Part shown: positions 27,666 through 42,200 of the stretch, one piece after another
How positions within the stretch are numbered: position 1 is the first letter of the stretch
Layout: each line of letters opens with the position of its first letter
From: Echinicola arenosa
GTDB taxonomy: Bacteria > Bacteroidota > Bacteroidia > Cytophagales > Cyclobacteriaceae
Direction of reading: 5' to 3'
DNA: 64,000 bases
Assembly (NCBI RefSeq): GCF_014841125.1
Contig: NZ_JACYTQ010000010.1
Span: forward strand, 62,001-126,000
Translations under genes and position numbers: made by a program
The notes under the pieces: model-generated
The model's database searches: none
The model's input: the letters and a program-made list of their open reading frames with translations, nothing else
What the model was told of the DNA's origin: nothing

Positions 27666-27699
27666 AGCCCCGAAAAATGCATATTTTATAATTAACGAT

Positions 27700-28722
27700 A
27701 TGGCGAAAAAGAGTTCTACGTCCACTAAATCCAAAGTAAAATACTCCAATGATACCTACGCTTACTGGTATGAGAGCATGTTGCTCATGAGGAGATTTGA
27801 AGAAAAGGCTGGCCAACTTTATGGTCAACAAAAAATCAGAGGTTTTTGTCACTTATATATAGGTCAGGAGGCTTGTGCTGCTGGTGCAATCACTGCCCTG
27901 GAAAAAGAAGATAAATGGATCACCGCTTACCGTGACCACGCACATCCACTAGGATTAGGTACTGATCCAGGTGCTGTGATGGCAGAACTTTACGGTAAGG
28001 CTACCGGTACCACCAAGGGTAAAGGTGGTTCTATGCACATCTTCGATAAAGAGAGAAACTTTATGGGAGGTCATGGCATCGTAGGTGCACAGGTTCCAAT
28101 GGGCTTGGGTATAGGCTTTGCTGAGAAATATAAGGGCACCAAAAACCTTTGTATTTGTCACATGGGTGATGGTGCTGTTAGACAAGGTGCCGTACACGAA
28201 GCTTTTAACTTGGCGATGTTGTACAAAACTCCTGTGATCTTTGTAATCGAAAACAATGGCTATGCCATGGGTACTTCTGTCACACGTTCTTCTAATGTAG
28301 ATGATCTCTCTACTATCGGAGAGTCTTATGATATGCCTTCTTTTGCGGTAGATGGAATGAATGTGGAAGCTGTTCATGAGGCAGTATCAGAAGCAGCAGA
28401 AAGAGCTAGAAAAGGTGACGGTCCTACTTTGTTGGAATTTAGAACTTACCGATATAAAGGCCACTCTATGTCTGATCCTCAGAAATACAGAACACGAGAG
28501 GAAGTAGAGGAGTACAAAGCGAAGGATCCAATTGAGCAAGTGAAGAAAACCATCTTGGACAATGAGATTCTTACTGAAGAGGAAATCAAAAAGATTGATG
28601 ATAAAGTGAAAAAGCAAGTGGCTGATGCAGTGAAATTTGCTGAAGAATCTCCATGGCCTGATGGTCAAAAAGCATTTGAAGATGTTTATATGCAAGAGGA
28701 TTATCCTTTTGTGATGGAATAA
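27700..28722 (+). CDS. pdhA: Pyruvate dehydrogenase E1 component, alpha subunit
   Basis: The 340-residue thiamine-diphosphate enzyme subunit shows the ThDP/Mg motif GDGAVRQGA starting near residue 156 and ending in ENNGYAMGTS, an MRRFEEKAGQLYG N-terminus, and the regulatory-loop region RYKGHSMSDP. With E1 beta it decarboxylates pyruvate and transfers acetyl to lipoyl-E2. The beta subunit is not adjacent: a terminator follows immediately, then the integrated element. In the ancestral arrangement the next gene would have been the TPR gene at 40867. Confidence 0.95.
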   Translation: MAKKSSTSTKSKVKYSNDTYAYWYESMLLMRRFEEKAGQLYGQQKIRGFCHLYIGQEACAAGAITALEKEDKWITAYRDHAHPLGLGTDPGAVMAELYGKATGTTKGKGGSMHIFDKERNFMGGHGIVGAQVPMGLGIGFAEKYKGTKNLCICHMGDGAVRQGAVHEAFNLAMLYKTPVIFVIENNGYAMGTSVTRSSNVDDLSTIGESYDMPSFAVDGMNVEAVHEAVSEAAERARKGDGPTLLEFRTYRYKGHSMSDPQKYRTREEVEEYKAKDPIEQVKKTILDNEILTEEEIKKIDDKVKKQVADAVKFAEESPWPDGQKAFEDVYMQEDYPFVME

Positions 28723-28736
28723 AATTATAACTCATG

Positions 28737-28787
28737 AAAAGTCAGCTGTCTGCGTGGTTTTCTTCACCAAAACAGCTGACTTTTTTT
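28737..28787 (+). terminator. Rho-independent terminator after pdhA
   Basis: AAAAGTCAGCTGT (28737-28749) pairs with its complement at 28772-28784. The 22-base loop is followed by T residues to 28787, overlapping the paired T run. Confidence 0.85.
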
Positions 28788-28794
28788 ATGATAG

Positions 28795-28824
28795 TTTGCG
28801 AATAAACTAAAACCGTTATATTTG
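28795..28824 (+). promoter_or_regulatory. Promoter at the left junction, reading into the element
   Basis: TTTG at 28795-28798, an 18-bp spacer and a perfect TATATTTG at 28817-28824 form a Bacteroidota-type promoter. The -33 box is host DNA, while the -7 box is the first part of the 21-bp attachment repeat. It points into the element and would transcribe the HEPN-motif gene at 28931. Before integration it would have driven the TPR gene now at 40867. Confidence 0.65.
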
Positions 28825-28837
28825 CGACTGAAATTTT
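28817..28837 (+). repeat. Left 21-bp direct repeat (attachment site)
   Basis: The 21 bases beginning TATATTTGCGACTGAAA recur exactly at 40840-40860 in the same orientation. One copy lies at each end of an integrase-bearing element, as expected of attL/attR. The host flanks differ (GT before this copy, TTTATTG after it). Confidence 0.88.
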
Positions 28838-28868
28838 TTTATTGATGAAAATCAGCTAGTTATGTATT

Positions 28869-28890
28869 TTAGGGTAAAATTTAGGGTAAA
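28869..28890 (+). repeat. Paired TTAGGGTAAA repeats near the left end (possible integrase arm sites)
   Basis: TTAGGGTAAA occurs at 28869-28878 and 28881-28890, a 12-bp period. Related copies lie near the right end at 40720-40729 and 40733-40742. Short direct repeats just inside both att sites are the usual form of arm-type binding sites for tyrosine integrases with an N-terminal arm-binding domain. Confidence 0.55.
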
Positions 28891-28930
28891 TTTTTTATAA
28901 TGATCTGGTATAAATAACTTTTGAAGCTTA

Positions 28931-30139
28931 ATGAAAATAACAGCTAGGAATATTAATCAGATAAAAGAGTCCTTCAAGAAATTAGTTGATAAATATCAAC
29001 AACTTTCTGACGAATATGACCCTGATGATTCAGTTTATGAAATATCAATTGGAATGGAAGAAATACAACTTCCATTCCCTAAAGATCCTGATGCTTTTCA
29101 TCAGGTTAGTGATTTTATTCGATTGATGAATGAATTTGAATCAATTCGTTTCGAAAGTAAAAATAAAGTAATTACTACAAGATTCTCTCAAAGAGCCATT
29201 TTTTGTAATGATCAACTATTTTATGAAATCGTTGAAAATGGTAAAAATAATCTTGAATTTACCTTCAATGACATTACTTTAAGGATAGTAAATAATCCAA
29301 TTTTAATAGGTTTAGGTTCTTTACATTATGGTTTATGGGATAAATATGTTCCTCCCTGTTCATCTTACAATGCAATTGAAGTTGAATATAAAGGAGACCG
29401 TTCTAATGTTAATGAAGATGAGCTTATTACTTCTTATATTTACTCATTAGCAGTAAAATTTGATTTCGATATCCATTTGATTGATGTTTATGACAGTGGA
29501 TTATTTGACTTTGATACGGATGAAGAAGTCGATCCAAAAAATCATAAAATTGATTCTATAGAAAGTTATAATTTCGGTATGGATCTATATCTCAAAGCAA
29601 ATCGAGATATTGATGAAGAAATGAGACTTTTGTACTATTACAAGGTTCTTGAATTTTTTGCTCCAGTTGAAATAAAAAAAAATGCCAATGAAAAACTTAG
29701 ATTAAAGCTGTTTTCCCCCAAAGCGACAGAGCCTGACGCTAATTTTTTGCAATCAATTTTTGCTTTAACAAAGAGGTATGAAGAAGATCTAAGGGATAAT
29801 GAACTTATAAAACCATTACTTAGGGAGTGCATTGATATTGTTGATTTATATGAATTTTTGCCAGAAAGTATAAAGCATAAAATACGGAGAGAATTAAAGA
29901 TAAGTATTGTTTCTTATGATTTGGATTCTCAAAATGTAATTAAATTATCAGATTATATAAGTACAATAATTTATGCAACCAGGAATTCATTTGTTCATGC
30001 AAAGTCGAATTATAGTTCTAATGGAAAAGAATGTACTGATGAAGAATTGGCTGACCTAAATATCTTTTTAAAGCATACATGTAATTCAGTAATTAAATGG
30101 TATAACAGGTTACCGAATCATCTTAAAATCATGAATTGA
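28931..30139 (+). CDS. HEPN-motif protein of unknown function (candidate defence effector)
   Basis: This 402-residue, very A+T-rich gene is the first cargo gene inside the left repeat. I do not recognise the N-terminal two thirds. The C-terminal quarter is alpha-helical and contains R351-NSFV-H356, the Rx4H motif of HEPN ribonuclease domains, in the context YATRNSFVHAK that resembles Apea-like HEPN proteins. An acidic segment (DFDTDEEVD) lies near residue 198. There is no signal peptide or membrane segment. HEPN domains often act as RNA-cleaving toxins in defence systems, so an antiphage role is plausible but unproven. The promoter would be the host-derived one at 28795-28824. Confidence 0.65.
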   Translation: MKITARNINQIKESFKKLVDKYQQLSDEYDPDDSVYEISIGMEEIQLPFPKDPDAFHQVSDFIRLMNEFESIRFESKNKVITTRFSQRAIFCNDQLFYEIVENGKNNLEFTFNDITLRIVNNPILIGLGSLHYGLWDKYVPPCSSYNAIEVEYKGDRSNVNEDELITSYIYSLAVKFDFDIHLIDVYDSGLFDFDTDEEVDPKNHKIDSIESYNFGMDLYLKANRDIDEEMRLLYYYKVLEFFAPVEIKKNANEKLRLKLFSPKATEPDANFLQSIFALTKRYEEDLRDNELIKPLLRECIDIVDLYEFLPESIKHKIRRELKISIVSYDLDSQNVIKLSDYISTIIYATRNSFVHAKSNYSSNGKECTDEELADLNIFLKHTCNSVIKWYNRLPNHLKIMN

Positions 30140-30180
30140 CCAATGTTTAAATAAGTGTTTGGTTTATAATTGCAAGTTAT

Positions 30181-30200
30181 GTTTTTGGATATCCAAAAAC
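30181..30200. repeat. Perfect 20-bp palindrome
   Basis: GTTTTTGGAT is followed directly by its reverse complement. It lies 41 bp after the HEPN-motif gene. No T tract follows, so a dimeric-protein binding site or cruciform is at least as likely as a terminator. Confidence 0.6.
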
Positions 30201-30232
30201 TAAAATTCGGGTTTTCACACCTCTTTTACTTG

Positions 30233-30250
30233 AAATCGTGGGAACGATTT
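30233..30250. repeat. Inverted repeat AAATCGT-GGGA-ACGATTT
   Basis: A perfect 7-bp stem encloses a GGGA loop and is followed by ATTTCTTCCC. It could be a weak terminator for the HEPN-motif gene or part of a regulatory region. Confidence 0.45.
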
Positions 30251-30270
30251 ATTTCTTCCCTTTGGTCAAT

Positions 30271-30290
30271 TCTCTAATATTTATTAGAGA
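30271..30290. repeat. Inverted repeat TCTCTAAT-ATTT-ATTAGAGA
   Basis: A perfect 8-bp stem with a 4-base loop, the third of three closely spaced inverted repeats in this gap. Its function is unknown. Confidence 0.45.
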
Positions 30291-30439
30291 TAAATGAATA
30301 GGTGATAATTTAAATATTGGATTAACTTATGATTAATGAATAGATATGAATTGGGGTTTGAAATTAAAGAAGCTATTAAAATCTTCAATAATTACTTTTA
30401 AACATTTTTAGCACCTAACCCACCGAAATATAATGAGTA

Positions 30440-30474
30440 TTTTCACTATGGAACAGTGAGTTTGTATTATTTTG
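30440..30474 (+). promoter_or_regulatory. Candidate promoter/operator of the XRE gene
   Basis: A one-mismatch -7 box TTATTTTG lies at 30467-30474, 24 bp before the ATG. TCACT-N7-AGTGA, a dyad at 30443-30459, sits between the -33 and -7 regions, where a controller protein could bind and repress. The -33 box (TTTT at 30440-30443) is poor. Confidence 0.35.
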
Positions 30475-30498
30475 CAATTGAATTAAAATGGTTTGAAA

Positions 30499-30708
30499 AT
30501 GAACCGAATTAAAGAAATCCTGAAAGCCAAAGGAATAACGCAGACTTGGCTTGCTGAGAAAATGAATAAAAGCTACACGACAATAAACGAGTATGCTCGA
30601 AACGTAAGACAGCCAAGTGTAGAGGATTTATATGAAATAGCTGACATTTTACAAGTACAGGCAACTGACTTGTTAGTAAATAAAATGAATAACAATGATA
30701 GAAACTAA
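30499..30708 (+). CDS. XRE-family HTH regulator (candidate restriction-modification controller)
   Basis: The 69-residue protein is little more than a Cro/CI-type helix-turn-helix (TQTWLAEKMNKSYTTINEYARN, spanning residues 13-34) plus two more helices. This size and position just upstream of a restriction-modification operon are typical of controller (C) proteins that time nuclease expression. ATG 30499 (MNRIKEIL) is preferred to a TTG two codons upstream. Its last 14 bases overlap the methyltransferase gene, so translation of the two is linked. Confidence 0.85.
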   Translation: MNRIKEILKAKGITQTWLAEKMNKSYTTINEYARNVRQPSVEDLYEIADILQVQATDLLVNKMNNNDRN

Positions 30709-32719
30709 GGTTATCATTTCAATTCCCGAAGGAAAACTAAGGGACTACATTGATGGAACAATTCGAGTTGACACACCTGAAGAATACGTTAGACAGACCG
30801 TTGAAAAAAGATTGATTAACGAACACAAATACTCAAAGGAACAAATCAAAATTGAGTATGGAGTTCAAATGGGTTCGGGTAAAAAGCGAGCTGACATTGT
30901 AATCTTTCCAAAAGATTCAACAGCAGAAGAAATTAAAGACCAAGACAATATTTGGTTAGTCATTGAATGCAAAAAAGAAGCTGTTAAGCCAACCGACAAA
31001 AACAATGGCGTTGAGCAGATGAAATCCTACATGGCTGCTTGCGGAAACTGTGAGTGGGGAATGTGGACAAACGGAATGCACAAAGAAGTTTGGCGGAGAG
31101 TTAGGAACGAGCAAGGAAAATATGTTTACGAAGAGTTTAATGATATTCCTTCTGCTGACGGAACAACTGACGAACACGAAAGACCAAATCGAAATACTTT
31201 AATTAAGGCTTACGAAGACAATTTACTCTTTACCTTCAAAACTTGCCATAACATTATTTACGTCAATGAAGGTTTACAAAAGCAACCTGCATTTTTTGAA
31301 TTTCTTAAAATAATTTTCTGCAAAATTCATGACGAACGTAACTTACTTGAACCAGTAGAATTTTTCACTACTTCAAAAGAGAGAAATTACAAAGACGGTC
31401 AAGCAAGTGTTTACAAGAGAATTTCTAAAATATTTGAGGACGTTAAAAAGCGACACGGACAAATATTTGATAAAAATGATGAAATAAAATTAGCACCAAG
31501 AACTGTAACTTATTTGGTCGCTGAACTTCAAAAGTATGCTCTTCTAACTACAAATATTGACATTAAAGGAAAAGCCTACGAAGAGATTGTTGGTGCTAAT
31601 CTAAGAGGCGACAGAGGCGAATTTTTCACGCCAAGAAATGTTATGAAAATGGCAGTCGCCATGCTTAACCCAAAAGAAACTGAACGCGTTTTGGACAGCA
31701 GTTGCGGAACGGGTGGCTTTGTAGTTACTGCAATGACAGCAGTAATTGATTCTTTGCGGGAAAGAATGGAAAGCCAATATGGCGAAGAAGAAGGATGGAA
31801 CGCAGACGTAAGAAAAGCATTTAACGATAAAATTTCTGAAATCGCTTCTGAAAATTATTTTGGTTTTGACATAAATCCAGACTTGGTAAAAGCAACCAAA
31901 ATGAATATGGTAATGAATAATGACGGAAGCGGAAATATTCTGCAACTCAATTCACTTTTACCACCGCAAGAATGGGAAGAAGAAACCAAAAAGAAACTTG
32001 CAAAAGCATTAGATATTTCTGCAAGTGAAATTCGCAACCATAAAAGTTTAAGTCATTTCGATATTATTGTAACCAATCCACCATTTGGCTCAAAAATTCC
32101 AATCAAAGACCAGCAAATACTCGAACAATTTGACATAGCTTACATTTGGAATAAAGACGAAAACGGAAATTGGTTTAAAACAGACCGTTTACAGTCAAGC
32201 GTACCACCAGAACAACTTTTCATTGAACGAATTATTCAACTTTTAAAAGAAGGCGGTAGAACAGCAATTGTTTTACCTGATTCAATTTTAGGTGCACCAG
32301 GTCTTGAATACATTCGTCATTGGTTAATTAAAAACACCAAAATTATTGCGAGTGTTGATTTACACGCTGATGCATTCCAACCAAGGAATGGAACGCAATG
32401 TTCTATCCTATTCCTTCAAAAGAAAACCAAAGCAGAAATAGCTGACGAAGAAAAGTCAAGACAAATAATTGATTACGACATTTTCATGACCATGATAGAC
32501 CATATCGGTCATGACAAAAGAGGTGGGAAAATCTTCAAAAGAGACGAAAAAGGAAATATCGTAATGATTGAAGTTGAAGAACTTGTAAAGGAAAAAGATG
32601 CTGACGGAAATTTAATTGCTCGTAAAGAAGTAACACAAGAAAAAATTGTGAATGACCAGACTATTCACGTTGCAGACGTTTTTTCAAAATGGAAAACTAA
32701 ACAAGGAATAGCATGGTAG
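30695..32719 (+). CDS. BcgI-like fusion: HSDR_N-type nuclease domain plus N6-adenine DNA methyltransferase
   Basis: The 674-residue protein joins two activities. Residues about 1-150 form a PD-(D/E)xK-like domain of the HSDR_N type, with E37, D67 (KKRADIVIF) and E91-C-K93. Residues about 270-600 form a type I HsdM-like adenine methyltransferase with motif I DSSCGTGGF (334-342) and catalytic NPPF (461-464). A helical region lies between them. This matches the A subunit of BcgI-type type IIB enzymes, which cut and methylate with a separate specificity subunit. No HsdR translocase follows. An alternative is a type I modification subunit with a vestigial nuclease domain. The specificity gene starts 7 bp before its stop. 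Confidence 0.85.
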   Translation: MIETKVIISIPEGKLRDYIDGTIRVDTPEEYVRQTVEKRLINEHKYSKEQIKIEYGVQMGSGKKRADIVIFPKDSTAEEIKDQDNIWLVIECKKEAVKPTDKNNGVEQMKSYMAACGNCEWGMWTNGMHKEVWRRVRNEQGKYVYEEFNDIPSADGTTDEHERPNRNTLIKAYEDNLLFTFKTCHNIIYVNEGLQKQPAFFEFLKIIFCKIHDERNLLEPVEFFTTSKERNYKDGQASVYKRISKIFEDVKKRHGQIFDKNDEIKLAPRTVTYLVAELQKYALLTTNIDIKGKAYEEIVGANLRGDRGEFFTPRNVMKMAVAMLNPKETERVLDSSCGTGGFVVTAMTAVIDSLRERMESQYGEEEGWNADVRKAFNDKISEIASENYFGFDINPDLVKATKMNMVMNNDGSGNILQLNSLLPPQEWEEETKKKLAKALDISASEIRNHKSLSHFDIIVTNPPFGSKIPIKDQQILEQFDIAYIWNKDENGNWFKTDRLQSSVPPEQLFIERIIQLLKEGGRTAIVLPDSILGAPGLEYIRHWLIKNTKIIASVDLHADAFQPRNGTQCSILFLQKKTKAEIADEEKSRQIIDYDIFMTMIDHIGHDKRGGKIFKRDEKGNIVMIEVEELVKEKDADGNLIARKEVTQEKIVNDQTIHVADVFSKWKTKQGIAW

Positions 32720-34197
32720 ATAACAGCAATTTAGCGTACAAGTTTCAAGAAGTTGAAAAGGAAATAGATTACACCTATTTACCTGAACCATTAAAATACA
32801 CTTCTGTTTCGTTAACTGAGGTTTTCAATAACAAGCTACGATTAGAAGCCAATTCTTTCAACTTAGAAGCAAAAGCTGCTAAAGAAAAAATTCTTAATAA
32901 TAAATATGGAGTAGTAAAACTATGGTCTGACAATGGGCTTGTTGATAAAGCTTTTCATAGACCAAGGTTTAAAAGAATCTATGTTGACCGTAAAGAAATT
33001 CCATTTTATCAACCCTCTTCTATAACAGATGTTTATCCAAAACCCTCGAAATATATTTCAGCTAAAACGGAAACAGACCTAGAAAGCTTAAAAGTAAAAA
33101 AGGGAATGCTTTTAATGACGGTATCGGGAACTATAGGAAAAGTTGCAATAGCGGGGAAAAAATTAGAAAATCAAATATTTAGTCATGACCTTTTAAGACT
33201 TACAGGTAAAGGGAAATACGATTCAGGGTACATTTATTGTTATTTCTTGTCTGAAGCGGGTCAACATATTTTGCAATCCAATAATTATGGGGCAGTTATT
33301 AAACACATTGAACCCGAACATTTGCAAAATATCATAATCCCAAATGCACCAGAAATATTAAAAAAAGAGATTCACGAACTTGTAATAGAATCTTACGATT
33401 TACGAGACGAATCCAATGATTTAATAGACAAAGCAGAGTCAATTCTTTATGAAGAACTTCAACTTAAACCAATTGAAGAATTGGAAACTACTTTTTTTGA
33501 CAGTTCCGTAGATTTAAGAAACTACTCTACTAAACTAAGTGGCTTGAATCTAAGACTTGAAGCTTCATTTCATGTGCCTTCAACGCAAGCCATATTAAAG
33601 GCAATTAACATACACGCAAAGGAAGTAACTAAAATTGGAGATAAAAGAATAGCTTCTGATATTATACTACCCGGTCGTTTTAAAAGAGTTTATGTCGAGA
33701 AACATAATGGCATTCCTTTTTTTGGAGGTAAACAACTATTGGAACTAAATCCAAGTAACATTAAATATTTATCACTTGACCAACATTCTAAAAGAATTGG
33801 CGAACAACTCTTTTTAAAAGAAAATATGACCGCTGTTACTTGTAGTGGGACAATTGGAAAAGTTAATATTATTCCAAAACATTGGGAGAATTGGACATTA
33901 AATCAACACGTAATGCGTATTGTTCCTGCAAATCTCGATATAGCAGGTTACATTTTTTGTTGGTTAAATACAGAGTTTGGTCATAGACTTATAACTCGTC
34001 ATACTTATGGCTCGGTCGTAGATGAAATTGATGATAGACACTTATCACAAGTGGAAATTCCATTACTTAAAAACGAGAAAAAACAGAAAGAAATTAATGA
34101 CTTGGTTTTACAGGCAAACGAATTAAGATACAAAGCCCATTTGAAAGAGCAGGAGGCGATTAAGAAAATGGAAACCATAATAAACGACACCAAATAG
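32713..34197 (+). CDS. Restriction-modification specificity subunit (HsdS/BcgIB-like)
   Basis: The 494-residue protein has two target-recognition half-repeats, each with the same internal landmarks: RFKRIYV near residue 91 and RFKRVYV near 320, MTVSGTIGK near 136 and VTCSGTIGK near 373. Each is followed by an NYGAVIKHIEPEHL/TYGSVVDEIDDRHL segment and a conserved helix. Together they should read a split recognition sequence and dock the methyltransferase/nuclease subunit. It overlaps the upstream gene by 7 bp. The stop codon lies inside the first arm of a terminator hairpin. Confidence 0.93.
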   Translation: MVDNSNLAYKFQEVEKEIDYTYLPEPLKYTSVSLTEVFNNKLRLEANSFNLEAKAAKEKILNNKYGVVKLWSDNGLVDKAFHRPRFKRIYVDRKEIPFYQPSSITDVYPKPSKYISAKTETDLESLKVKKGMLLMTVSGTIGKVAIAGKKLENQIFSHDLLRLTGKGKYDSGYIYCYFLSEAGQHILQSNNYGAVIKHIEPEHLQNIIIPNAPEILKKEIHELVIESYDLRDESNDLIDKAESILYEELQLKPIEELETTFFDSSVDLRNYSTKLSGLNLRLEASFHVPSTQAILKAINIHAKEVTKIGDKRIASDIILPGRFKRVYVEKHNGIPFFGGKQLLELNPSNIKYLSLDQHSKRIGEQLFLKENMTAVTCSGTIGKVNIIPKHWENWTLNQHVMRIVPANLDIAGYIFCWLNTEFGHRLITRHTYGSVVDEIDDRHLSQVEIPLLKNEKKQKEINDLVLQANELRYKAHLKEQEAIKKMETIINDTK

Positions 34198-34221
34198 CCC
34201 GGACTTTGCTCCGGGCTTTTT
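34196..34221 (+). terminator. Rho-independent terminator of the restriction-modification operon
   Basis: AGCCCGGA (34196-34203) pairs with TCCGGGCT (34210-34217) around a CTTTGC loop, followed by T residues. The last two bases of the specificity-gene stop codon are part of the stem. Confidence 0.9.
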
Positions 34222-34359
34222 CATGTTTGGTGTTTTTTAACTTAAAGCTATTCTGTTGAGCGAACGTCACATCTACGTTATTAAAAGTGTTTAACGAAAA
34301 GTCGTTCTAAAAATATTTCACGTATATGTAGAAAGTCCTTATTTAAATTTTTATTAGCT

Positions 34360-34482
34360 ATGAAAAAATCAAAAAATATTCTTTTTGTATTGATTACTAT
34401 TTTCTTCTTTTCAGGTTGTCAAGAGGTGCCCGAAACTGGATGTATAAAGGGTATTCTAATAGACCTTTTCTTTGCTTTTTGA
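34360..34482 (+). CDS. 40-residue lipoprotein-like peptide
   Basis: ATG 34360 to TGA 34480-34482 encodes a basic start (MKKSKN), a hydrophobic core and the lipobox FFSGC (cysteine 20), then only 20 more residues ending in a second hydrophobic stretch (ILIDLFFAF). It may be a real small membrane peptide, for example an immunity or toxin peptide, or the surviving N-terminus of a truncated lipoprotein. It lies between the restriction-modification operon and the AbiE-like pair. I see no homology I can name. Confidence 0.4.
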   Translation: MKKSKNILFVLITIFFFSGCQEVPETGCIKGILIDLFFAF

Positions 34483-34562
34483 TTAACCCATTATACATGA
34501 AATCTAAAAGTATGGATCCTGTGCCTAGGAGTTTTGATTATATTGTTTCTTATATTAGTTGA

Positions 34563-34868
34563 ATGGGTAACGCGATAAACAATGTCATCCTAACAGACTT
34601 CTTCCCCAAAAGCATTTTTTGGGACGTGGACGTTGATCGCTTAGATTATCGTGATGAAATTGATTTTATAATCCCAAGGGTGCTTGATAAAGGGCTATTG
34701 TTTGATTGTTTAGATAATTTGGAACAGCTTTATTCGCTTGAAGCCATTCAATATTTTTGTAAGAATAGTTCTCAGGTTTTTGGAAATGAAAAGATCAAAT
34801 TTTTAGCAAAAAAATATCGTCTTAAGCCAAAGCAATTTTTGAGATACGATCCTAATATTGAATTGTAA
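34563..34868 (+). CDS. DUF6922-type protein, likely antitoxin partner of AbiEii
   Basis: The 101-residue protein contains FWDVDVDRLDY (about residues 20-30) and DFIIPRVLDKG, the recognisable core of the DUF6922 family. A helical remainder with IQYFCKNSSQVF follows. In Bacteroidota this family regularly sits directly upstream of AbiEii nucleotidyltransferase toxins, as here with a 5-bp gap. It lacks the winged-helix domain of classical AbiEi antitoxins, so its mode of toxin control is unknown. Confidence 0.8.
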   Translation: MGNAINNVILTDFFPKSIFWDVDVDRLDYRDEIDFIIPRVLDKGLLFDCLDNLEQLYSLEAIQYFCKNSSQVFGNEKIKFLAKKYRLKPKQFLRYDPNIEL

Positions 34869-34873
34869 TAATC

Positions 34874-35695
34874 ATGGAAGCCGTTTCAAAAGAACATTAT
34901 CGATTGATTAAAACATTGATGGATTTGCCTTCCTTGAAGCAATTTAATTTAGGAGGAGGTACCAGTCTGGCTCTAAGGTATAATCATAGAATTTCTTTGG
35001 ATGTTGACCTATTTGCCCAGGGAGTTGTAGGAGCTGAAGCCATGATGATAATTAAGACTGAACTCGAATCAAATCTAGATGGTGTAAAGGTAGAGCTTAA
35101 CAATGCTCAACATGATTCTTTATCTTTTATCAGTGCAACTGTACCGGTTAATAAAAGTCAATCTCAAAAGCCCGAGGTCATTCAAGTTGAGATAATCCAG
35201 AATCTCAAAAACCTTTATGCCCCTGACATGGTAGGCGGAGTTAGGTTTATCAAAATAGATGATATTGGGGCTTTGAAGTTGTTGTCAGTTGTTGGAAGAG
35301 GTGTTAGAAAGGATTTTTATGATCTTCATTTATTAACTGAAATAAAGCCGTTGAGGCACTACTATGACCTGTTGATGGAATATCAAAAAATCAATGTTGG
35401 TTCTGAACCAAATATATTTGATCAAATGTCTCCATCAAACGGTGGAGAGAAAGCAGTTTTATCAAAAGACTTATCCATCCTTGCCGATTTTAACAGAGCA
35501 AGCTTAGAGAGGATCAAAAGTAACCAAATAAGGTCAGTGCCAGACTGTAAAATAGTGAACATGGAGCAGAGCTGGCAAATTATAAAGGGCGCCTGGAAGA
35601 AAAAGGTAAAGGAATTTGCTTTAGAAAGAGGCCTGAAATTCCAGGAAACTCCAGTCAAAAGGAAAAACAAGAATCAAAACTGGTTTATTAAATAA
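34874..35695 (+). CDS. AbiEii/AbiGii-family nucleotidyltransferase toxin
   Basis: The 273-residue DNA polymerase beta-like nucleotidyltransferase has the AbiEii motifs GGTSLALRY (residues 28-36), the metal-binding D43-V-D45 in RISLDVDLF, and the KDFYD motif at 146-150 (D147, D150). Known AbiEii toxins block growth by adding nucleotides to tRNA or other targets and cause abortive phage infection as type IV toxin-antitoxin systems. Here the partner is the upstream DUF6922 protein. The gene is full length and its active-site residues are intact, so it is probably active. Confidence 0.9.
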   Translation: MEAVSKEHYRLIKTLMDLPSLKQFNLGGGTSLALRYNHRISLDVDLFAQGVVGAEAMMIIKTELESNLDGVKVELNNAQHDSLSFISATVPVNKSQSQKPEVIQVEIIQNLKNLYAPDMVGGVRFIKIDDIGALKLLSVVGRGVRKDFYDLHLLTEIKPLRHYYDLLMEYQKINVGSEPNIFDQMSPSNGGEKAVLSKDLSILADFNRASLERIKSNQIRSVPDCKIVNMEQSWQIIKGAWKKKVKEFALERGLKFQETPVKRKNKNQNWFIK

Positions 35696-35737
35696 GGCTG
35701 TAATTATTGCTTTTGGGGAAAAGTTATACAACCAGTC

Positions 35738-35759
35738 CTATTCATTTATAAGTGAATAG
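35738..35759. repeat. Inverted repeat CTATTCA-N8-TGAATAG
   Basis: A perfect 7-bp stem lies 42 bp after the AbiEii stop, without a T tract. A related perfect palindrome TGAATAA-G-TTATTCA lies at 35799-35813, suggesting repeated binding sites with a TGAATA core. Confidence 0.45.
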
Positions 35760-35798
35760 ATTATTTATGATTAATTTAATTATGTATGGATGTATAAA

Positions 35799-35813
35799 TG
35801 AATAAGTTATTCA
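35799..35813. repeat. 15-bp palindrome TGAATAAGTTATTCA
   Basis: Perfect dyad around a central G, sharing the TGAATA core with the inverted repeat 40 bp upstream. Possible operator. Confidence 0.45.
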
Positions 35814-35923
35814 CCCATAAGATTTTAGTTCATAGTCGAATGGTTGCTAAATTTAAGGACCCCAATTCAAAGAATGCTTAGTATGATTTTAAAAGCGATT
35901 ACTAGTGGAAATTGCTGAAAAGT

Positions 35924-36157
35924 AGTCCTACATGTCCAACATTAAAAAAAATAAGCCATAGGCCTGTTTAGGCCTGTTTTTCTGTGATTCGTAGTGTAGG
36001 ACAACTTTATTTTTGTAGGACATTTTTATATAAATTATTAAGTGCTGTCCTACATTATCCTACAAATTGATAAGCAATTCCTACCTTGTCCTACGACTAA
36101 TACTAATAAAAGATAGTTCTCTTCTTCTATTAGCCTTATTATAGTTATTGTAGGACA
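35924..36157. repeat. Iteron-like array of TGTAGGACA repeats
   Basis: The 9-mer TGTAGGACA occurs in both orientations. Plus copies are at 35995-36003, 36014-36022 and 36149-36157. Inverted copies (TGTCCTACA) are at 36046-36054, with one mismatch at 36056-36064, 36087-36095 and 35924-35932, and a weaker one at 36077-36085. The array ends 50 bp from the 3' end of the helicase gene. Clustered iterons of this kind serve as replication origins or as regulator-binding arrays. Mixed orientation and irregular spacing exclude a CRISPR array. Confidence 0.75.
35960..35979. repeat. Tandem AGGCCTGTTT repeat / hairpin
   Basis: Two direct copies of AGGCCTGTTT lie at 35960-35969 and 35970-35979. Because AGGCCT is self-complementary they can fold as AGGCC-TGTTTA-GGCCT. 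T residues follow on the plus strand, and an A run (T run on the minus strand) lies on the other side, so a weak bidirectional terminator is possible. Confidence 0.5.
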
Positions 36158-36207
36158 GGTAGGATTGAATATTTAGGTTTTCTTATAATAGAGTTTAATA
36201 CGGAAAC

Positions 36208-38220
36208 TTAATCTTCATGGAAAGACCCCAATTTTTCTGAGGATTGAATGTTGTTGAGTGTACTGTTATTTTCTTCAGGGTAATCTTCCTTCATATCGAG
36301 TTTAAGACCGGATTCTTCCAATATCTTACAGTCAAAAAGAAATGCGCTAGTAACAATTCTTCTGTTGTCCTTGTAAAATGAAGTTGACTTGATTTGACCA
36401 ATGTATGCATGTGTATTTTCTAAATAATGGATAAGCGAGCCCTTGTCCAGTCCCGGTCTTTCTCCTTTTCTTCTCCGACCTTCGAGGTATTTGTGGTAGG
36501 CATTATTCAAGCGAATAAATAATATCTTTTTTAACCCTCCAAAATCCTTATCGACAGATCTTCTGTTTTCTAATATCTTTAATTTTCTATGATATTCGAT
36601 TTTAAAATCACCCTTTTCAGTTAGCTCATTCTCAGAAATTAAGTATTCAACCTCTTCCCAGAATGCATTGGTTTCATTTGATTTGGCAATAAAGTTATTT
36701 TGATCTCTAACATTTTTGGCTGCTACTGAAAGAACTTTTTCCCAATCAAAAGGCCATTTTAACTCTTTACTTAATATTTTCCATGTAGTTAGGATGGTCA
36801 CCATATTATTAATAATTCGGGATTTAATGTGTGGATCATCTTTCAGTATACCATTAATATCCTTCCTTACTGATTCGAATGTCAGAAAGTATTCTTGGTT
36901 AATTTTATTTCTATATTTTGTAATGTGTGCAGTTATATGGCTTAATCCCTCTTTCTCCATTTTCTGAAGTTTAGAGAGCTGGAATTGCTCTTCTGGACTA
37001 TATATGGTTTTAGTATATGTCAGTAGGATGCACCTATTAAATATCGCTATATCCATCGTTGGTCTTTCTTGGCCTGAAATATTACAGCCTGAGTATACTG
37101 GAGTTCTTGCCGTCCGATTGTTTGATTGATCTTTTATTGAAGTATCTGCCTTTGAATGATTGGATCCATCATATGCTCCTTTTATACCTCTTCCTCTTTT
37201 GGGGTCAATGGAATTTGAATATTCATCAAACCAAACAACTCCATTTCTGAATTGCGCAAATGTTCGATGGAAACTAACATCTGTTCCAGAATCAAGGTTA
37301 TATGGGTTTCTCCTCTCGCCAAACATATACTGTATACTCCAGCAAATTGTAGACTTTCCAGTGCCACTTTCTCCAAAATGAAATAAGTGAGGAAAATATT
37401 TAAGTTCCTTATAAATGATATCTCGAAATAGACAGGAAATATAAAAACAAGAGCTTAAGATGCCATTATCTCCAAAGACCTTATAGAATTGGATAATCCA
37501 CTCCTTAAATGTTATATACTCATGTTTCAAATATTTGATAGTTCTATCTACTTCATAACTTGAATCATTATTATACATGGGAGATAAAGCTGGAATGAGG
37601 TATAAAGTTTCTTCAACTTTGTCGGGGTCTCGGCAAAGACCATGTTCATTGGTAGGGTGAAAGATGCCATTTTTAATGATACCATTGGCAAAAGCGTAAA
37701 ATCCCTCTTTCTGCCAGCCCAAAACTTCAATTTCACGAACATTTTTAGTGTTGTCATAAATTCTCTTTTTTGTGTTTATATATTGGGAGGCATTCCCCTC
37801 AAAAAGAAAATTTCCTTGGGGTTCACAATAGGTTTTAAATTCATTAAGGTAGACTAAGGATTTAGCCGGGATTGAAATTATTTTTTGGTATGAATTTTCA
37901 TTCTGTAATTCTACTATCCTTTTACCGTTTTCAGTTCCAGGAACTAAGTAAAGTGGATTTATATGGAAGTTTGAGATTTTTTTTAATGAAATTATTTTTT
38001 CCTTAAAATCATAAACAGCATGGTAAATACAATTATTAAATATGAGATGTTTGTATTTATTAATTTCCCATTTTAAATGAGGTTCATTAAAATTGTTGGC
38101 AGCTTCAATTTCTTCGGGCCATGAATAACTCCATTCATGATTCAGGTTGTCAATGTCTGTTCTGATGCCATCCATTAAATCGGAATTGACAGTCTTGTCT
38201 TTATTGATATTATTGTTCAT
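36208..38220 (-). CDS. SF3/DUF927-like helicase ATPase (element replication protein)
   Basis: The 670-residue protein carries Walker A GESGTGKST (residues 283-291) and Walker B VVWFDE (328-333), then NISGQERP and an arginine in FNRCILL, the order seen in DUF927/SF3 helicase-like proteins of mobile elements. The N-terminal 250 residues show no primase motif that I can see; the C-terminal part is helical and may bind DNA. It probably unwinds the element's origin, most likely the iteron-like array beside its 3' end. The gene is strongly A+T-rich. Confidence 0.75.
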   Translation of the reverse strand: MNNNINKDKTVNSDLMDGIRTDIDNLNHEWSYSWPEEIEAANNFNEPHLKWEINKYKHLIFNNCIYHAVYDFKEKIISLKKISNFHINPLYLVPGTENGKRIVELQNENSYQKIISIPAKSLVYLNEFKTYCEPQGNFLFEGNASQYINTKKRIYDNTKNVREIEVLGWQKEGFYAFANGIIKNGIFHPTNEHGLCRDPDKVEETLYLIPALSPMYNNDSSYEVDRTIKYLKHEYITFKEWIIQFYKVFGDNGILSSCFYISCLFRDIIYKELKYFPHLFHFGESGTGKSTICWSIQYMFGERRNPYNLDSGTDVSFHRTFAQFRNGVVWFDEYSNSIDPKRGRGIKGAYDGSNHSKADTSIKDQSNNRTARTPVYSGCNISGQERPTMDIAIFNRCILLTYTKTIYSPEEQFQLSKLQKMEKEGLSHITAHITKYRNKINQEYFLTFESVRKDINGILKDDPHIKSRIINNMVTILTTWKILSKELKWPFDWEKVLSVAAKNVRDQNNFIAKSNETNAFWEEVEYLISENELTEKGDFKIEYHRKLKILENRRSVDKDFGGLKKILFIRLNNAYHKYLEGRRRKGERPGLDKGSLIHYLENTHAYIGQIKSTSFYKDNRRIVTSAFLFDCKILEESGLKLDMKEDYPEENNSTLNNIQSSEKLGSFHED

Positions 38221-38279
38221 ATTTAGGTGTTAAAATATCTTAAAAAACTTTGAAGGAGAGAATGCGGGTTCTCTCCTTT

Positions 38280-38579
38280 TTACTTTTGGGAATTAAACTC
38301 ACCAGCAAAATATTTTTTGATTTCATTTTTGTGGATGTAATATTTGCCCATTATCTTTTTATGCTGCATGCCCCTATCAAAAAATTTATAGAGGGTGTTA
38401 TAACTCTTCATATCCACCAACTCCATGAATTTTTTAGCAGTTATATATTCCACTAAGTCTTGTTCTTTAAAGGAGGATTCCTTTGATAATAATTGATCTA
38501 ATTTGTCTTCAATGATCCTGAATTTGTTTGATAAGCTCTTAGGATCGATAATTAAAAGTGTTTTATCTAAATTTTCCAT
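38280..38579 (-). CDS. Excisionase-like helix-turn-helix protein
   Basis: The 99-residue protein has a helical N-terminal part (residues 1-45) and an HTH_17/excisionase-type winged helix (about 46-93; YITAKKFMELVDM, then GKYYIHKNEIKKYF). Such proteins bend att-site DNA to favour excision or act as element regulators. It lies between the helicase and the integrase module. An array of TGTTAGYA half-sites begins at its start codon, suggesting autoregulation. Confidence 0.75.
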   Translation of the reverse strand: MENLDKTLLIIDPKSLSNKFRIIEDKLDQLLSKESSFKEQDLVEYITAKKFMELVDMKSYNTLYKFFDRGMQHKKIMGKYYIHKNEIKKYFAGEFNSQK

Positions 38580-38654
38580 TTGTTAGTATGTTTTGATTAT
38601 TATTACTAACAAATAAATAAAATGTTAGCATTATTTCAAAATGTTGCTAACAAA
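38579..38654. promoter_or_regulatory. Operator-like array: four TGTTAGYA half-sites in two inverted repeats
   Basis: TTTGTTAGTA (38579-38588) faces TACTAACAAA (38604-38613), a perfect 10-bp inverted repeat. TGTTAGCA (38623-38630) faces TGCTAACA (38645-38652). The two dyads have nearly the same span (31 and 30 bp) and fill the gap between the excisionase-like gene and the next gene upstream. This looks like a binding region for the element's own regulator. Confidence 0.6.
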
Positions 38655-38669
38655 TGAATTCATATATAT

Positions 38670-39419
38670 TCATTTATTTTGAAAAATGGCCTCTATTTTG
38701 CCTTCAAACATCTTAAAAACCTTATCCCTCTTATTCTTTTTATCACTTTTGGGTGATAACGGGAATAAAGAGTTTATTTTTTGTTCGTTATAAATGTCAA
38801 ATAGAAAAAGAAAATTGTCATTAAAAGAAGAATGAAATTCAAAAGAGGTTGATAATGAGTAAAGTAAATCTAAATCCTTGTGTTTAATTATATCATTAAA
38901 TAATTCGGATGAGTTTTCACGCATCGTTGATAAGAACAAGTAAACTGCTTTTGGGGGAAGTGACTCTACAAAAACGGTACTGGTTGAACTACCTTGTTTT
39001 GAAAAATAATCCAATAATTGATCCTTTATATCTTGATAAACAAACTCGTGACACGGAGTTATTACTTTATGAAAAACCTCAGAACTAAAAAATGAAATAT
39101 CAAATTCCGTAGAATAGAATTTGTCATGCAATGTTTTTGATTCATTTATAATCCATAGATCTCTTTTGATATGACCATCATAAGAAATGTTATTGTTCAA
39201 TATCGCTGATTTAACAGCTATACCTAATTTAACCCCAGAAGATTCTTCTATTCTAATTAAGTTTTCAGAAGCCGTCCAACTAAAACTTTTTAGTTTTACT
39301 GGTTTTCGATTATAAGTTATTTGAACATATAATGGGGACAAGTTTATGGGGTTCTTTTTAATCTTTTTTAAATCTTCTCCATAAAAATGTTTTATACTTA
39401 ATTTTTTTTCCTTAGCCAT
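38670..39419 (-). CDS. Integrase-associated protein of unknown function
   Basis: The 249-residue, A+T-rich gene encodes a protein whose residues about 25-50 (LSPLYVQITYNRKPVKLKS) resemble the beta-stranded arm-DNA-binding domain found at the N-terminus of Bacteroidota integrases, including the neighbour. No catalytic recombinase motifs follow, and the rest is helical. It may bind att-arm DNA as an accessory factor; that is inference. A minus-strand -7 box TACTTTTG at 39444-39451 with TTG about 22 bp upstream would provide its own promoter, 24 bp before the ATG. Confidence 0.6.
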   Translation of the reverse strand: MAKEKKLSIKHFYGEDLKKIKKNPINLSPLYVQITYNRKPVKLKSFSWTASENLIRIEESSGVKLGIAVKSAILNNNISYDGHIKRDLWIINESKTLHDKFYSTEFDISFFSSEVFHKVITPCHEFVYQDIKDQLLDYFSKQGSSTSTVFVESLPPKAVYLFLSTMRENSSELFNDIIKHKDLDLLYSLSTSFEFHSSFNDNFLFLFDIYNEQKINSLFPLSPKSDKKNKRDKVFKMFEGKIEAIFQNK

Positions 39420-39461
39420 AGAGTTTACGCGTAGTTATTGAAACAAAAGTAATAAATAACA

Positions 39462-40700
39462 TCAATCCTCTTTCAACAAGTCCTTAAGTGTTCTGAACAT
39501 ATCATTATTAGCCACACTATATTCTTGTTGTGTCTGGATCTTCTTATGACCCATCATTCTTTGTGTTATTTGATGTGGATATTGGTTGGCTACAGTACTT
39601 TTAAAGGTGTATCTAGCAATTCTTTGATTTAAATTGAACTCCAATTCCAATCGATTACTGATCACCTCTAAATTTCTTGATATTGAAACTGATGGGTTTG
39701 AATGGTTATAGGTTATGTTTGGGAAAAGTTTCCCTTTATATTCAGGGTGGTATTTATCAAAAATCTTTCTAACAATCCTAGGATATAAGGGGTTTTCAAA
39801 TCGACCCCTACCCTCTTTTGTGCGATTACCTACTATAACAGCATAACTTTTGTCTTCACCTTCAAAATAGAGGTTGTCTTCACATGTTAAATTGGCAATT
39901 TCCTTGTAGCTCCTACTGGTGTAGCAAAGGAAAAGGAATAGGTCCCTAATTTCCTCCCTGTGTTTTTCTCTTTTACCATCTCCAAATTTCATGTTTTCTA
40001 GGGCAATTAACTGCTCTTTGGTCAATGCATATTTCTTTCTCTTCTTGGCATCACTAAATTGAATCTTTTCAAAAAGCCTACTATTAAATGGTTTGTCTAA
40101 TTCACGGCACCATTCATTATACACCACTTTAACCTTGTTGAAATATTCCTTGGCGGTACTTCCAGCCATCATATTATTTTCTGGATTGTCCAGGAAGGAA
40201 GCTAATCCAGTAAAATATGCCCTGGTCATTTCATTGAAGCTTACATTTGGATTGTATTCTTTTACTTTATTCAGTGCAGATTGATAGTTCACTTTATTTC
40301 CCCTTTTGCTACTAATAAAGTGATCAAAGAACATTTCAAATGTTTGTTCTTGAGACTGTACTTTTTTCCCCTCATGAGAATAGTTCTTTTCATACCAATC
40401 TTTCACTGACTTTACTGTGATTACCGTTCCGTTCAGGCTACAGTTAGCAAGGTAAATATCAATCTGACTTTTTACTTTATTGATGATTGAATTGTATTCT
40501 CTGTAATTCGTTACATTTTTTTTTATCCACTTACCTTCACTATCTTGGAAGTCTTCAATCCGGATATTGGGAATTTTGGGAGCAATGCTTGTCTTTTTTC
40601 TTAGTTCTCGGATCATTACATAGATAGGATAAGTCCCTTTTTTATTGGGTTTACTTTTTCTATTGTAATTTGGATCTATTTCTACCCTAGTATAAATCAT
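39462..40700 (-). CDS. Tyrosine-type recombinase/integrase
   Basis: The 412-residue protein has an arm-binding N-terminal domain (YPIYVMIRELRKKTSI), a SAM-like core-binding domain (about 110-210) and a catalytic domain. The catalytic residues include the first arginine in YTSRSYKEI, lysine in NRTKEGRG, R363 in RIARYTF, H385 in MMGHKK and nucleophile Y394 in QEYS. The usual HxxR histidine is replaced: it reads R360-I-A-R363. It lies just inside the right 21-bp repeat and should catalyse integration at the TPR-gene promoter. The arm-like repeats lie 20-42 bp upstream of its ATG. Confidence 0.93.
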   Translation of the reverse strand: MIYTRVEIDPNYNRKSKPNKKGTYPIYVMIRELRKKTSIAPKIPNIRIEDFQDSEGKWIKKNVTNYREYNSIINKVKSQIDIYLANCSLNGTVITVKSVKDWYEKNYSHEGKKVQSQEQTFEMFFDHFISSKRGNKVNYQSALNKVKEYNPNVSFNEMTRAYFTGLASFLDNPENNMMAGSTAKEYFNKVKVVYNEWCRELDKPFNSRLFEKIQFSDAKKRKKYALTKEQLIALENMKFGDGKREKHREEIRDLFLFLCYTSRSYKEIANLTCEDNLYFEGEDKSYAVIVGNRTKEGRGRFENPLYPRIVRKIFDKYHPEYKGKLFPNITYNHSNPSVSISRNLEVISNRLELEFNLNQRIARYTFKSTVANQYPHQITQRMMGHKKIQTQQEYSVANNDMFRTLKDLLKED

Positions 40701-40719
40701 TTCCTAAATTAGTAGTTAA

Positions 40720-40742
40720 TTAGGGTAAAAAATAGGGGTAAA
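40720..40742 (+). repeat. GGGTAAA repeats near the right end (possible integrase arm sites)
   Basis: TTAGGGTAAA at 40720-40729 is identical to the left-end copies; a second, TAGGGGTAAA at 40733-40742, shares the GGGTAAA core. They lie in the integrase leader, so binding could also regulate integrase expression. Confidence 0.55.
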
Positions 40743-40815
40743 AAGAATGAAAAACAATAATATTCATCTATTATCAATTCTTTAAAAACAGCGTTTTTCA
40801 AAAAAAACAGTAGGT

Positions 40816-40847
40816 TTTGTTATTATATGAAACATAATCTATATTTG
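40816..40847 (+). promoter_or_regulatory. Promoter at the right junction, driving the TPR gene
   Basis: TTTG at 40816-40819 (element DNA), a 20-bp spacer and TATATTTG at 40840-40847 (attachment repeat) give a full consensus promoter. Its leader to the ATG at 40867 would be short. The element thus supplies a new -33 region to the host gene. Confidence 0.65.
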
Positions 40848-40860
40848 CGACTGAAATTTT
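40840..40860 (+). repeat. Right 21-bp direct repeat (attachment site)
   Basis: Exact copy of 28817-28837 in the same orientation, ending 6 bp before the start codon of the TPR gene. The base before it differs (C here, G-T on the left), which fixes the repeat at 21 bp. Confidence 0.88.
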
Positions 40861-40866
40861 AGAATA

Positions 40867-41583
40867 ATGGTTAAGAAAGAGATTAAAAAGGGAGCAGCTC
40901 ATGATGAACACAATGAGCTTTTAGAGAACCCTGAAGCAATTGCTGAAAGTTTAGGGAAAGGTGAAGCTTTCTTGAAGAAAAACTCTCGAGCTGTTGGTGG
41001 AATTATCATTGTTGGGATTTTGGTGATTGCTGGAATTCTTTATTTCCAATTCAATAATGCCAATAAAGATAAAAAAGCGCAGGGAGAGATGTTCCAAGCA
41101 GTATATTACTTTGAGCAGGACAGCTTGGATTATGCTTTGAACGGTGACGGTGTGAATGATGGCTTCTTAAAAATCTTGGATGAATACAGTGGTACCAACT
41201 CTGCTAATCTGGCCAACTTCTACGCAGGATCGATTTATCTTACCCAAGGAGAGTACCAAAAAGCAGTAGATTATCTGGAAGATTTTTCAGCTGATGACTT
41301 CTTTGTACAAGCTAAAGCTTATGCGCTTTTGGGAGATGCTTATGTGGAGCTAGGTCAAAACAGCGAAGCAATCAGTGCATTTGAAAAAGCTGCTTCTTAT
41401 AAGGAGAACAAGTTCTTTACGCCTATTTATCTGAACAAGTTGGCCATTGCTTATGAGGCAGCAGGGCAGATCGAAAAGGCAATTGATACCTATGGTACTA
41501 TAGAAAACGAGTATCCAGAATCTTACGAATTTACATTAGCACGAAAGCATAAAGCGCGCTTAGAAGGCCTTGCATCTAAGTAA
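40867..41583 (+). CDS. Membrane-anchored tetratricopeptide protein (YfgM-like)
   Basis: The 238-residue protein has a short cytoplasmic N-terminus, one membrane helix (about residues 44-63, GGIIIVGILVIAGILYF) and a TPR region (about 110-235). This architecture resembles YfgM, the periplasmic TPR protein associated with the SecYEG translocon and PpiD in E. coli. The similarity is in layout only. A PpiD-like gene lies 21 kb downstream. Its promoter is the integration site of the 12-kb element. Confidence 0.8.
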   Translation: MVKKEIKKGAAHDEHNELLENPEAIAESLGKGEAFLKKNSRAVGGIIIVGILVIAGILYFQFNNANKDKKAQGEMFQAVYYFEQDSLDYALNGDGVNDGFLKILDEYSGTNSANLANFYAGSIYLTQGEYQKAVDYLEDFSADDFFVQAKAYALLGDAYVELGQNSEAISAFEKAASYKENKFFTPIYLNKLAIAYEAAGQIEKAIDTYGTIENEYPESYEFTLARKHKARLEGLASK

Positions 41584-41609
41584 TGCTTTGTGATTTACAG
41601 CATTTTAAG

Positions 41610-41638
41610 AAGTAAGGCCAAACGGTCTTACTTTTTTT
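41610..41638 (+). terminator. Rho-independent terminator after the TPR gene
   Basis: AAGTAAGGCC pairs with GGTCTTACTT (one G-T pair) around an AAAC loop, followed by a run of T. Confidence 0.9.
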
Positions 41639-41678
41639 GTGTTTATACATTATTGAACACCATTAATAAAAATTAGAA

Positions 41679-42155
41679 ATGGCAACTTCACTGAAAAACT
41701 TAAGTGAGCACTCAGCTAAAAATATAAAGGACATTAGCGAAAAGAAATTTGGGATTGTGGTTTCGGAATGGAACGATGAAGTAACAGAGTCTCTTTTTGA
41801 AGGAGCTATAGAGACACTTTTGTCTCACGGTGCGAAAAAGGAAAACATTTACAGGAAAAACGTCCCGGGTTCTTTTGAGCTTACGCTTGGTGCACAATGG
41901 GTGGCAGCTGTAGAAGAGATCGATGCGGTAATATGCCTCGGATGTGTCATTCAGGGAGAGACAAGACATTTTGATTTCATCTGTGATGCGGTGGCTCATG
42001 GCATAACCAATGTGGGGCTGAAATACAATAAGCCAGTAATTTTTGGAGTGTTGACTCCAGACACCCAACAGCAAGCCATGGACCGTGCTGGAGGGAAGCA
42101 TGGCAACAAAGGGGACGAAGCAGCCATTACAGCCATAAAAATGCTCGGTTTCTAA
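41679..42155 (+). CDS. ribH: 6,7-dimethyl-8-ribityllumazine synthase
   Basis: The 158-residue enzyme performs the penultimate step of riboflavin synthesis. Motifs include VVSEWNDEVTE (substrate loop), PGSFELTLGA and the catalytic histidine in GETRHFDFI, then GVLTPDTQQQAMDRAGG. It starts a short plus-strand unit with aspartate kinase 45 bp downstream, though the pathways are unrelated. Confidence 0.96.
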   Translation: MATSLKNLSEHSAKNIKDISEKKFGIVVSEWNDEVTESLFEGAIETLLSHGAKKENIYRKNVPGSFELTLGAQWVAAVEEIDAVICLGCVIQGETRHFDFICDAVAHGITNVGLKYNKPVIFGVLTPDTQQQAMDRAGGKHGNKGDEAAITAIKMLGF

Positions 42156-42200
42156 TATCAAGCTAGAAAAACAAACCATTAACATACATCAACTAATCAA

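Follow-up and report, generated by a model that had tools for sequence, protein, structure and literature searches.

The 64,000-nucleotide stretch of Echinicola arenosa DNA analysed here (the window) carries an island of about 12 kb between pdhA and a TPR gene, names that, like that of the flanking gene ribH, are presumptive and in part come from an earlier note on this DNA. The island is a tyrosine-integrase integrative element, as shown by its integrase, its direct-repeat ends and the empty site present in relatives. Its integration appears to have exchanged the two halves of the likely promoter of the TPR gene, with the island supplying the replacement promoter. The reading that we favour overall, and that we consider fairly probable, is a site-specific element whose core swaps promoter halves and which also has replication and defence roles.

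The island is bounded by the direct repeat TATATTTGCGACTGAAATTTT, exact over 21 bp and the sole direct repeat of at least 12 bp between the two flanks compared. The 21-bp length by itself is modestly unusual in 64 kb of AT-rich DNA (the longest exact repeat in 30 Markov shuffles of the window reached up to 21 bp, with a median of 16), and it is the position of the repeat that counts. The GC content is 0.323 between the repeats and 0.405 in the remainder of the window. The interior holds 10 main open reading frames (ORFs), largely without overlap, and these were the ones covered by the family and profile scans, smaller and overlapping ORFs being left out. An Rfam search of positions 26000-43000 gave no match. 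Just inside each end of the island lies a pair of short words: TAGGGTAAA twice on the left, and TAGGGTAAA with TAGGGGTAAA on the right, where the second copy has one extra G. The rest of the window has only unpaired copies of TAGGGTAAA, one at 6234, one at 22706 and two on the opposite strand, about one occurrence being expected by base composition, and none of 200 shuffles held such a pair. The pairs are plausible candidates for integrase arm sites on both sides of the core.

The empty site was sought with 538 bp of the left flank, including one repeat, joined to 540 bp of the right flank, a query that matched all 11 genomes of the genus searched, the own genome included. Six of the 10 others matched the joined flanks in one piece (G008 at 97%; G001, G002, G005, G006 and G007 at 76-81%), and four (G003, G004, G009 and G010) matched in two pieces, with the pdhA and TPR match ends 271-585 bp apart versus 116-119 bp. 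The island is absent from this site in all 10. With the exact repeat and the low GC content, these empty sites bear out the earlier note, which had described a 12-kb integrated element bounded by a perfect 21-bp direct repeat and had proposed looking in relatives for a site joining pdhA to the TPR gene. Across the joint, 338 bp of the joined flanks agree with the empty site of G008 at 99% identity, and G008 is the genome nearest to that of the window in a tree of pdhA and TPR; therefore the gain of the island in the own genome, or its precise loss in G008, was recent.

The earlier note had not remarked that the repeat falls within a likely promoter. The core holds TAtaTTTG, the Bacteroidota -7 consensus (the -33/-7 consensus being taken from the promoter description in PMC7366714, as far as it was drawn on here), and overlaps the -7 box and the leader of the likely promoter of the TPR gene. 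To the left of the two core copies lie the host promoter half, here called A, and the right arm of the island, here called B (Table 1). The 40 bp of half A are also found in G008, G005, G002 and G006, and half A with the core now stands 93 bp before the gene of the 402-aa cargo protein. A sigma-70 scan gave 55 sites versus 53.6 in shuffles and is not informative for this phylum. We propose that the integrase recombines the 21-bp core in the pdhA-TPR interval and that, since the -7 box is part of this core, the promoter halves would be exchanged upon integration: host half A and the core would be placed ahead of the first cargo gene, and arm B, which brings a TTTG of its own for the -33 position, ahead of the TPR gene, so that the interrupted gene would stay transcribed. 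A terminator-like hairpin is visible by eye (unscored) between the TPR gene and ribH, and perhaps only the TPR gene is therefore affected.

Island-free relatives carry one or the other of these halves. Up to the core, A-type genomes follow the left flank of the window and B-type genomes follow the right arm of the island, and after the core both types have host-specific sequence, which sets the breakpoint at the core. Over the 40 bp left of the core, the right arm is matched at 37/40 positions in G004, G009 and G010 and at 35/40 in G003, versus 9-10/40 in the A-type genomes compared (G001, G002, G005, G006 and G008); G007 is also A-type. The stretch of right arm common to G004, G009 and G010 is about 72-74 bp long, and left of it these genomes differ in length and mostly in sequence, with 91 bp near pdhA aligning between G009 and G010 (77%). 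Promoter types were also assigned by eye in the 30 family loci with sequence, and scores came from a script that missed 3 of 37 loci. Nineteen are A-like, with a pdhA-TPR gap of 114-136 bp, and six are B-like (G003, G055, G087, G213, G208 and G076), with a gap of 196-901 bp or with pdhA elsewhere; four are of neither type (G094, G011, G117 and G223), and the remaining locus is that of the window itself. Trees of pdhA and TPR place the A-type G007 within the B-type group, with support around it of 87/96/100/99 in a 26-genome tree and 76/80/99/94 in a 16-genome tree, and an approximately unbiased (AU) test on the 16 genomes rejected G003, G004, G009 and G010 as one clade (p-AU 0.0015). The simplest account of these sequences is that an element with a B arm was once present in this interval, that its removal was precise in G007, and that in the other genomes it was imprecise and would have left promoter scars. 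Our wider proposal, which we hold tentatively and rate somewhat short of probable, is that the -7 box serves as the crossover core and the promoter halves are swapped each time an element integrates, that the defence cargo is transcribed from a host housekeeping promoter and the host gene from an element promoter, that imprecise loss leaves scars, and that the promoter of the TPR gene was rewritten repeatedly in several genera.

Alternatively, B could be a native promoter allele captured into attP by an ancestor of the island from a B-type host, in which case the B congeners would not be scars; we regard this as possible but doubtful. It would agree with the occurrence of the B pattern in 11/390 family genomes from 4/84 genera (a search that misses the more diverged G208 and G076) and with similarity that falls in other genera, as well as with G208 and G076 themselves, where a B-like promoter is found and the TPR gene lies away from pdhA, and with fillers of the enlarged gaps in which no island remnant was found. 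Against it stand the AU test, which speaks against a single clade of the genus's B-type genomes, and the six B-like promoters, which among the 30 loci are confined to enlarged or interrupted pdhA-TPR gaps, although this gap argument is qualified by the four loci with other promoters, whose gaps are also enlarged.

The exchange of promoter halves with later scars remains our preferred reading, and several observations weigh against it. B-like promoters are less similar to that of the island in other genera (scores 41, 28 and 23), as a native promoter would be, and the scores of G087 and G213 barely favour B over A (23 vs 21). The fillers of G003, G004, G009, G010, G055, G087 and G213 hold no recognisable island gene, the best DNA matches of the first four to the island interior look like chance (among them one of 28 bp with E 0.011), arm-site pairs were not observed in fillers, and the filler of G055 resembles what are presumably other host genes. 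The trees are built on the two flanking genes only, and branch support near G007 is moderate (two inner nodes at 76-87 and 80-96). Elements with a similar gene order at tRNA sites, described below, show that promoter targeting is not general for that order. The boundaries, the empty sites, the gene content, the arrangement of the promoter halves and the matching arm of the relatives are direct observations; the activity of the promoters, excision, replication, defence and the means of transfer are all deduced from sequence, and we count this against the reading as well. Finally, the promoter description in PMC7366714 adds that no -33 motif was detected in F. johnsoniae.

Other pdhA-TPR intervals also differ in length. 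In G011 (C66), pdhA lies at 231090-232106 and the TPR gene at 187154-187858, about 43 kb apart and with a third promoter type, which suggests another insertion or a rearrangement at the same interval. In G109, G038 and G115 the interval is about 2.6-3.0 kb.

Table 1. Features of the island and its flanks, in positions of the window.
Feature	Position	Strand	Remarks
Host promoter half A	28777..28816	+	pdhA side; TTTG 18 bp upstream of TAtaTTTG; faces first cargo gene
attL core	28817..28837	+	Exact repeat; holds TAtaTTTG, the likely -7 box of the host promoter before integration
Candidate integrase arm-type sites, left pair	28870..28890	+	Copies 12 bp apart; putative binding
402-aa cargo protein, first cargo gene	28931..30139	+	One Rx4H motif; MauJ 16.8 bits, cut-off 28
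XRE/HTH_3 regulator, control-protein-like	30493..30708	+	Family matches
HSDR_N nuclease-type domain fused to N6-adenine methyltransferase	30695..32719	+	MAD2-like; motifs RADIV, ECKK, NPPF
Specificity (S) subunit, MAD5-like	32713..34197	+	MAD5 391.6 bits, cut-off 400 (NCBIfam)
DUF6922 protein	34563..34868	+	Candidate antitoxin of the AbiEii neighbour, from position
AbiEii-type nucleotidyltransferase toxin	34874..35695	+	46.4 bits, cut-off 22.5
Iteron-like cluster, candidate origin	35925..36166	.	TGTCCTACA / TGTAGGACA, both strands
Phage-type helicase, 670 aa	36208..38220	-	Matches C-terminal part of primase-helicase family; N-terminal primase part absent
HTH protein, 99 aa, candidate excisionase/regulator	38280..38579	-	HTH_17 below cut-off
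249-aa protein adjoining integrase	38670..39419	-	Second gene of the recurrent int-249aa-HTH order
Tyrosine integrase	39462..40700	-	phrog_1, E 7e-16; motifs TSR, TKEG, ARYTF, MGH, EY
Candidate integrase arm-type sites, right pair	40721..40742	+	Putative binding
Island right arm B	40800..40839	+	TTTG 20 bp upstream of TAtaTTTG; now upstream of TPR gene
attR core	40840..40860	+	Exact repeat; within leader of TPR gene
Host TPR gene	40867..41583	+	Likely promoter is the integration site

The gene content agrees in large part with the earlier note, whose integrase and whose order of integrase, helix-turn-helix (HTH) gene, helicase and repeats were both recovered. Its excisionase-like HTH protein stood only in part: relatives have an HTH gene at the same place near the integrase, but the HTH_17 match of 15.7 bits stays below the cut-off of 27. 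This protein, perhaps with the 249-aa protein, would control excision. Comparison of the 249-aa family with the integrase by profiles aligned 22 columns (probability 6%, E 0.006), a weak hint of an integrase-arm-like N-terminus, and a fold search with the 249-aa model (mean predicted local distance difference test, pLDDT, 60.6) gave no match at E <= 0.001.

The helicase had been called SF3/DUF927-like. The DUF927 score of 17.9 bits falls below the cut-off of 22.6, whereas a phage helicase is indicated by matches to phrog_22657 (E 9.5e-40) and to phrog_1139, 'DNA primase' (E 1e-16), the match spanning positions 570-1036 of a phage family of 1185 positions. Relatives at E <= 1e-10 were found in 14/195 genomes, the own included, in 49 phage records, all below 60% identity, and in three plasmid records. 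The nearest, from G009, is 45% identical, has an N-terminal zinc-ribbon/DUF6371 part that the island helicase does not have, and has as neighbours a head maturation protease gene (E 1.7e-49) and a gene weakly matching the terminase large subunit (TerL; E 2.4e-6); a more distant one in G143 (28%) accompanies TerL (3e-17) and tape-measure (4.7e-54) genes. The island helicase looks phage-derived. In the prophage-like region G009:C1:5310000-5345900, the 45% identical protein is a 1113-aa primase-helicase. The iteron-like array that the earlier note had placed beside the 3' end of the helicase is indeed there, between the helicase and AbiEii: TCCTAC/GTAGGA words occur nine times in 512 bp versus 0.2 expected, with at most three in 5000 shuffles and 30 in the whole window. 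Tandem Repeats Finder gave nothing in the window because the copies are irregular and lie on both strands. The cluster is a candidate replication origin, from which the phage-type helicase would probably replicate the excised circle.

The order of integrase, 249-aa and HTH genes is found beyond this island. When 390 genomes of the order were scanned with a profile built from two sequences of the 249-aa protein, 24 gave a match, in most cases to the N-terminal part only. The 249-aa gene lies between an integrase and an HTH gene of about 100 aa in eight of them besides the own genome (G087, G240, G371, G428, G439, G449, G458 and G491), and a ninth such genome, G114, was found via its integrase (39% identical), the sole match at E <= 1e-40 among 147 other family genomes; in the remaining 15 genomes this order was not seen within the stretch viewed. 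By eye, an HTH-like ORF lies downstream in G265 and at one G335 locus, and the 249-aa matches of a second G335 locus and of G345 adjoin a serine-recombinase-like ORF. A genome-contig search with the integrase alignment gave two loci. The elements L139-L146 and L070, from the same order of bacteria, share this gene order with the island. With the exception of G114, their integrases are 21-26% identical to that of the island (L139, L140, L145 and L146), and in multiple alignments the HTH proteins are 26-38% and the 249-aa proteins 19-25% identical. Of the five loci scanned with ARAGORN, four have a tRNA beside the integrase (tRNA-Met in L139, L140 and L145; tRNA-Arg in L146), and L070 has none. 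On this ground we rejected the idea that these elements generally target promoters. Their replication genes also differ from that of the island. TraG follows the three genes in G449, and DUF3987 or AAA_25/primase-type genes follow them in others. The tRNA sites and TraG show that this gene order is no mark of a satellite and, as judged by these comparisons, it belongs to a broader group of integrative elements.

Within this group, L140-L144 have differing cargo behind a common replication block, and the gene beside them (in the g82 genomes) is presumably era-like. Other families of the order have genes of about 235-245 aa that stand alone, apart from any tyrosine integrase, and whose products begin with a KKxKKITxKFFLN...YPLY-like signature (L113, L114, L121, L128 and similar); these are possible kin of the 249-aa protein.

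How the island moves can be approached from its gene content; it may be mobilised in trans or packaged by a phage. The first possibility is that of an integrative and mobilizable element (IME), or a decayed integrative and conjugative element (ICE), moved by the conjugation machinery of another element. The recurrence of the three-gene order beside tRNA genes in other genera, with TraG in one case, would fit it. However, that kinship is distant, the replication protein of the island is phage-type and not DUF3987 or AAA_25, and no relaxase or conjugation gene was matched in Pfam by the 10 ORFs (oriT was not searched for); we consider this origin possible, though not likely.

The earlier note had likened the layout to that of satellites of the phage-inducible chromosomal island (PICI) type. 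According to this explanation, a helper phage would induce the HTH regulator, and the island would excise, replicate from the repeat cluster and be packaged by the helper. The layout is alike, the nearest relatives of the helicase lie in prophage-like regions, as described above, the helicase is matched by 49 phage records, and the 10 ORFs gave no relaxase or structural-protein match, in line with the note, which had seen no relaxase, secretion or capsid gene. Among PICI features, as set out in the part of PMC6092414 drawn on here, we see a specific site, an integrase and the absence of structural matches, together with an HTH protein below its cut-off and a putative origin. Against it, the 10 ORFs include no recognised terS or interference gene, such as one acting on the capsid (cos sites, which according to the same part of that source some PICIs use, were not searched for), the helicase has no primase part, and no relative came up among viral contigs with the helicase, integrase, right arm or attP junction as query. 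No helper was identified: TerL in the own genome is a single 24-bit match, and the same search matches 11 of 14 control genomes, while a phage of the family of the G009 region is a candidate helper or donor. A satellite is thus possible, though in our judgement not likely. The closest described type, PICMI satellites of Vibrionaceae, is similar in its integrase, small gene near it, HTH_17/AlpA-type gene, replication protein, defence cargo and lack of capsid genes. By the definition in the part of PMC10803314 drawn on here, PICMIs have a DUF3987/DUF5906 primase and integrate next to fis; the island differs in its pdhA-TPR site, in a replication protein without a DUF3987 or DUF5906 match in Pfam, in an HTH protein below the cut-off and in having no known helper. 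No satellite family of Bacteroidota is named in the titles and abstracts of the literature searched, whose coverage is incomplete. A preprint (PMC12324425) describes, in the part drawn on, an element with structural genes, unlike the island.

The cargo, to the left of the repeat cluster, comprises a restriction-modification or MAD-like pair, an AbiE-like pair and the 402-aa protein, which may protect the host or stabilise the island; a defence role is suggested by family membership. The nuclease-methyltransferase fusion scores 627 bits against NCBIfam MAD2 (cut-off 720), and its best match among solved structures is RM.BsaXI. With MAD5, it is one of only two components of the MADS defence system recognised, both just below the NCBIfam cut-offs, in a system whose full gene set we take to be mad1-mad8. 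No AbiEi antitoxin match was found beside AbiEii, whose neighbour is the DUF6922 protein. The Rx4H motif of the 402-aa protein is presumably HEPN-like, and its predicted structure is unusable (pLDDT 34).

Taken as a whole, the island resembles known integrative elements and is only moderately unusual, and we file it as an integrative element whose transfer mode is unsettled. Many integrative elements carry a copy of a tRNA end and in this way spare their host; in the island, the sequence held in common with the host appears to be a conserved promoter box itself. The nearest parallels are the dusA-specific islands (IMEVchUSA3) and SXT in prfC, which also target the 5' end of housekeeping genes and supply a new promoter, demonstrated by reporter assay for the former and stated for the latter in the part of PMC8409611 drawn on here. 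Unlike the island, whose core lies in the promoter and leader and leaves the protein untouched, they replace the coding start too, and they belong to another phylum and have other gene content. If the promoter-box core is true, integration would be neutral, expression of the cargo would be tied to integration, and readable promoter fossils would be left behind. Empty, occupied and putatively scarred sites all exist within this one genus, which makes the idea directly testable, and for the satellites and defence islands of Bacteroidota the island adds one well-bounded element with a candidate origin.

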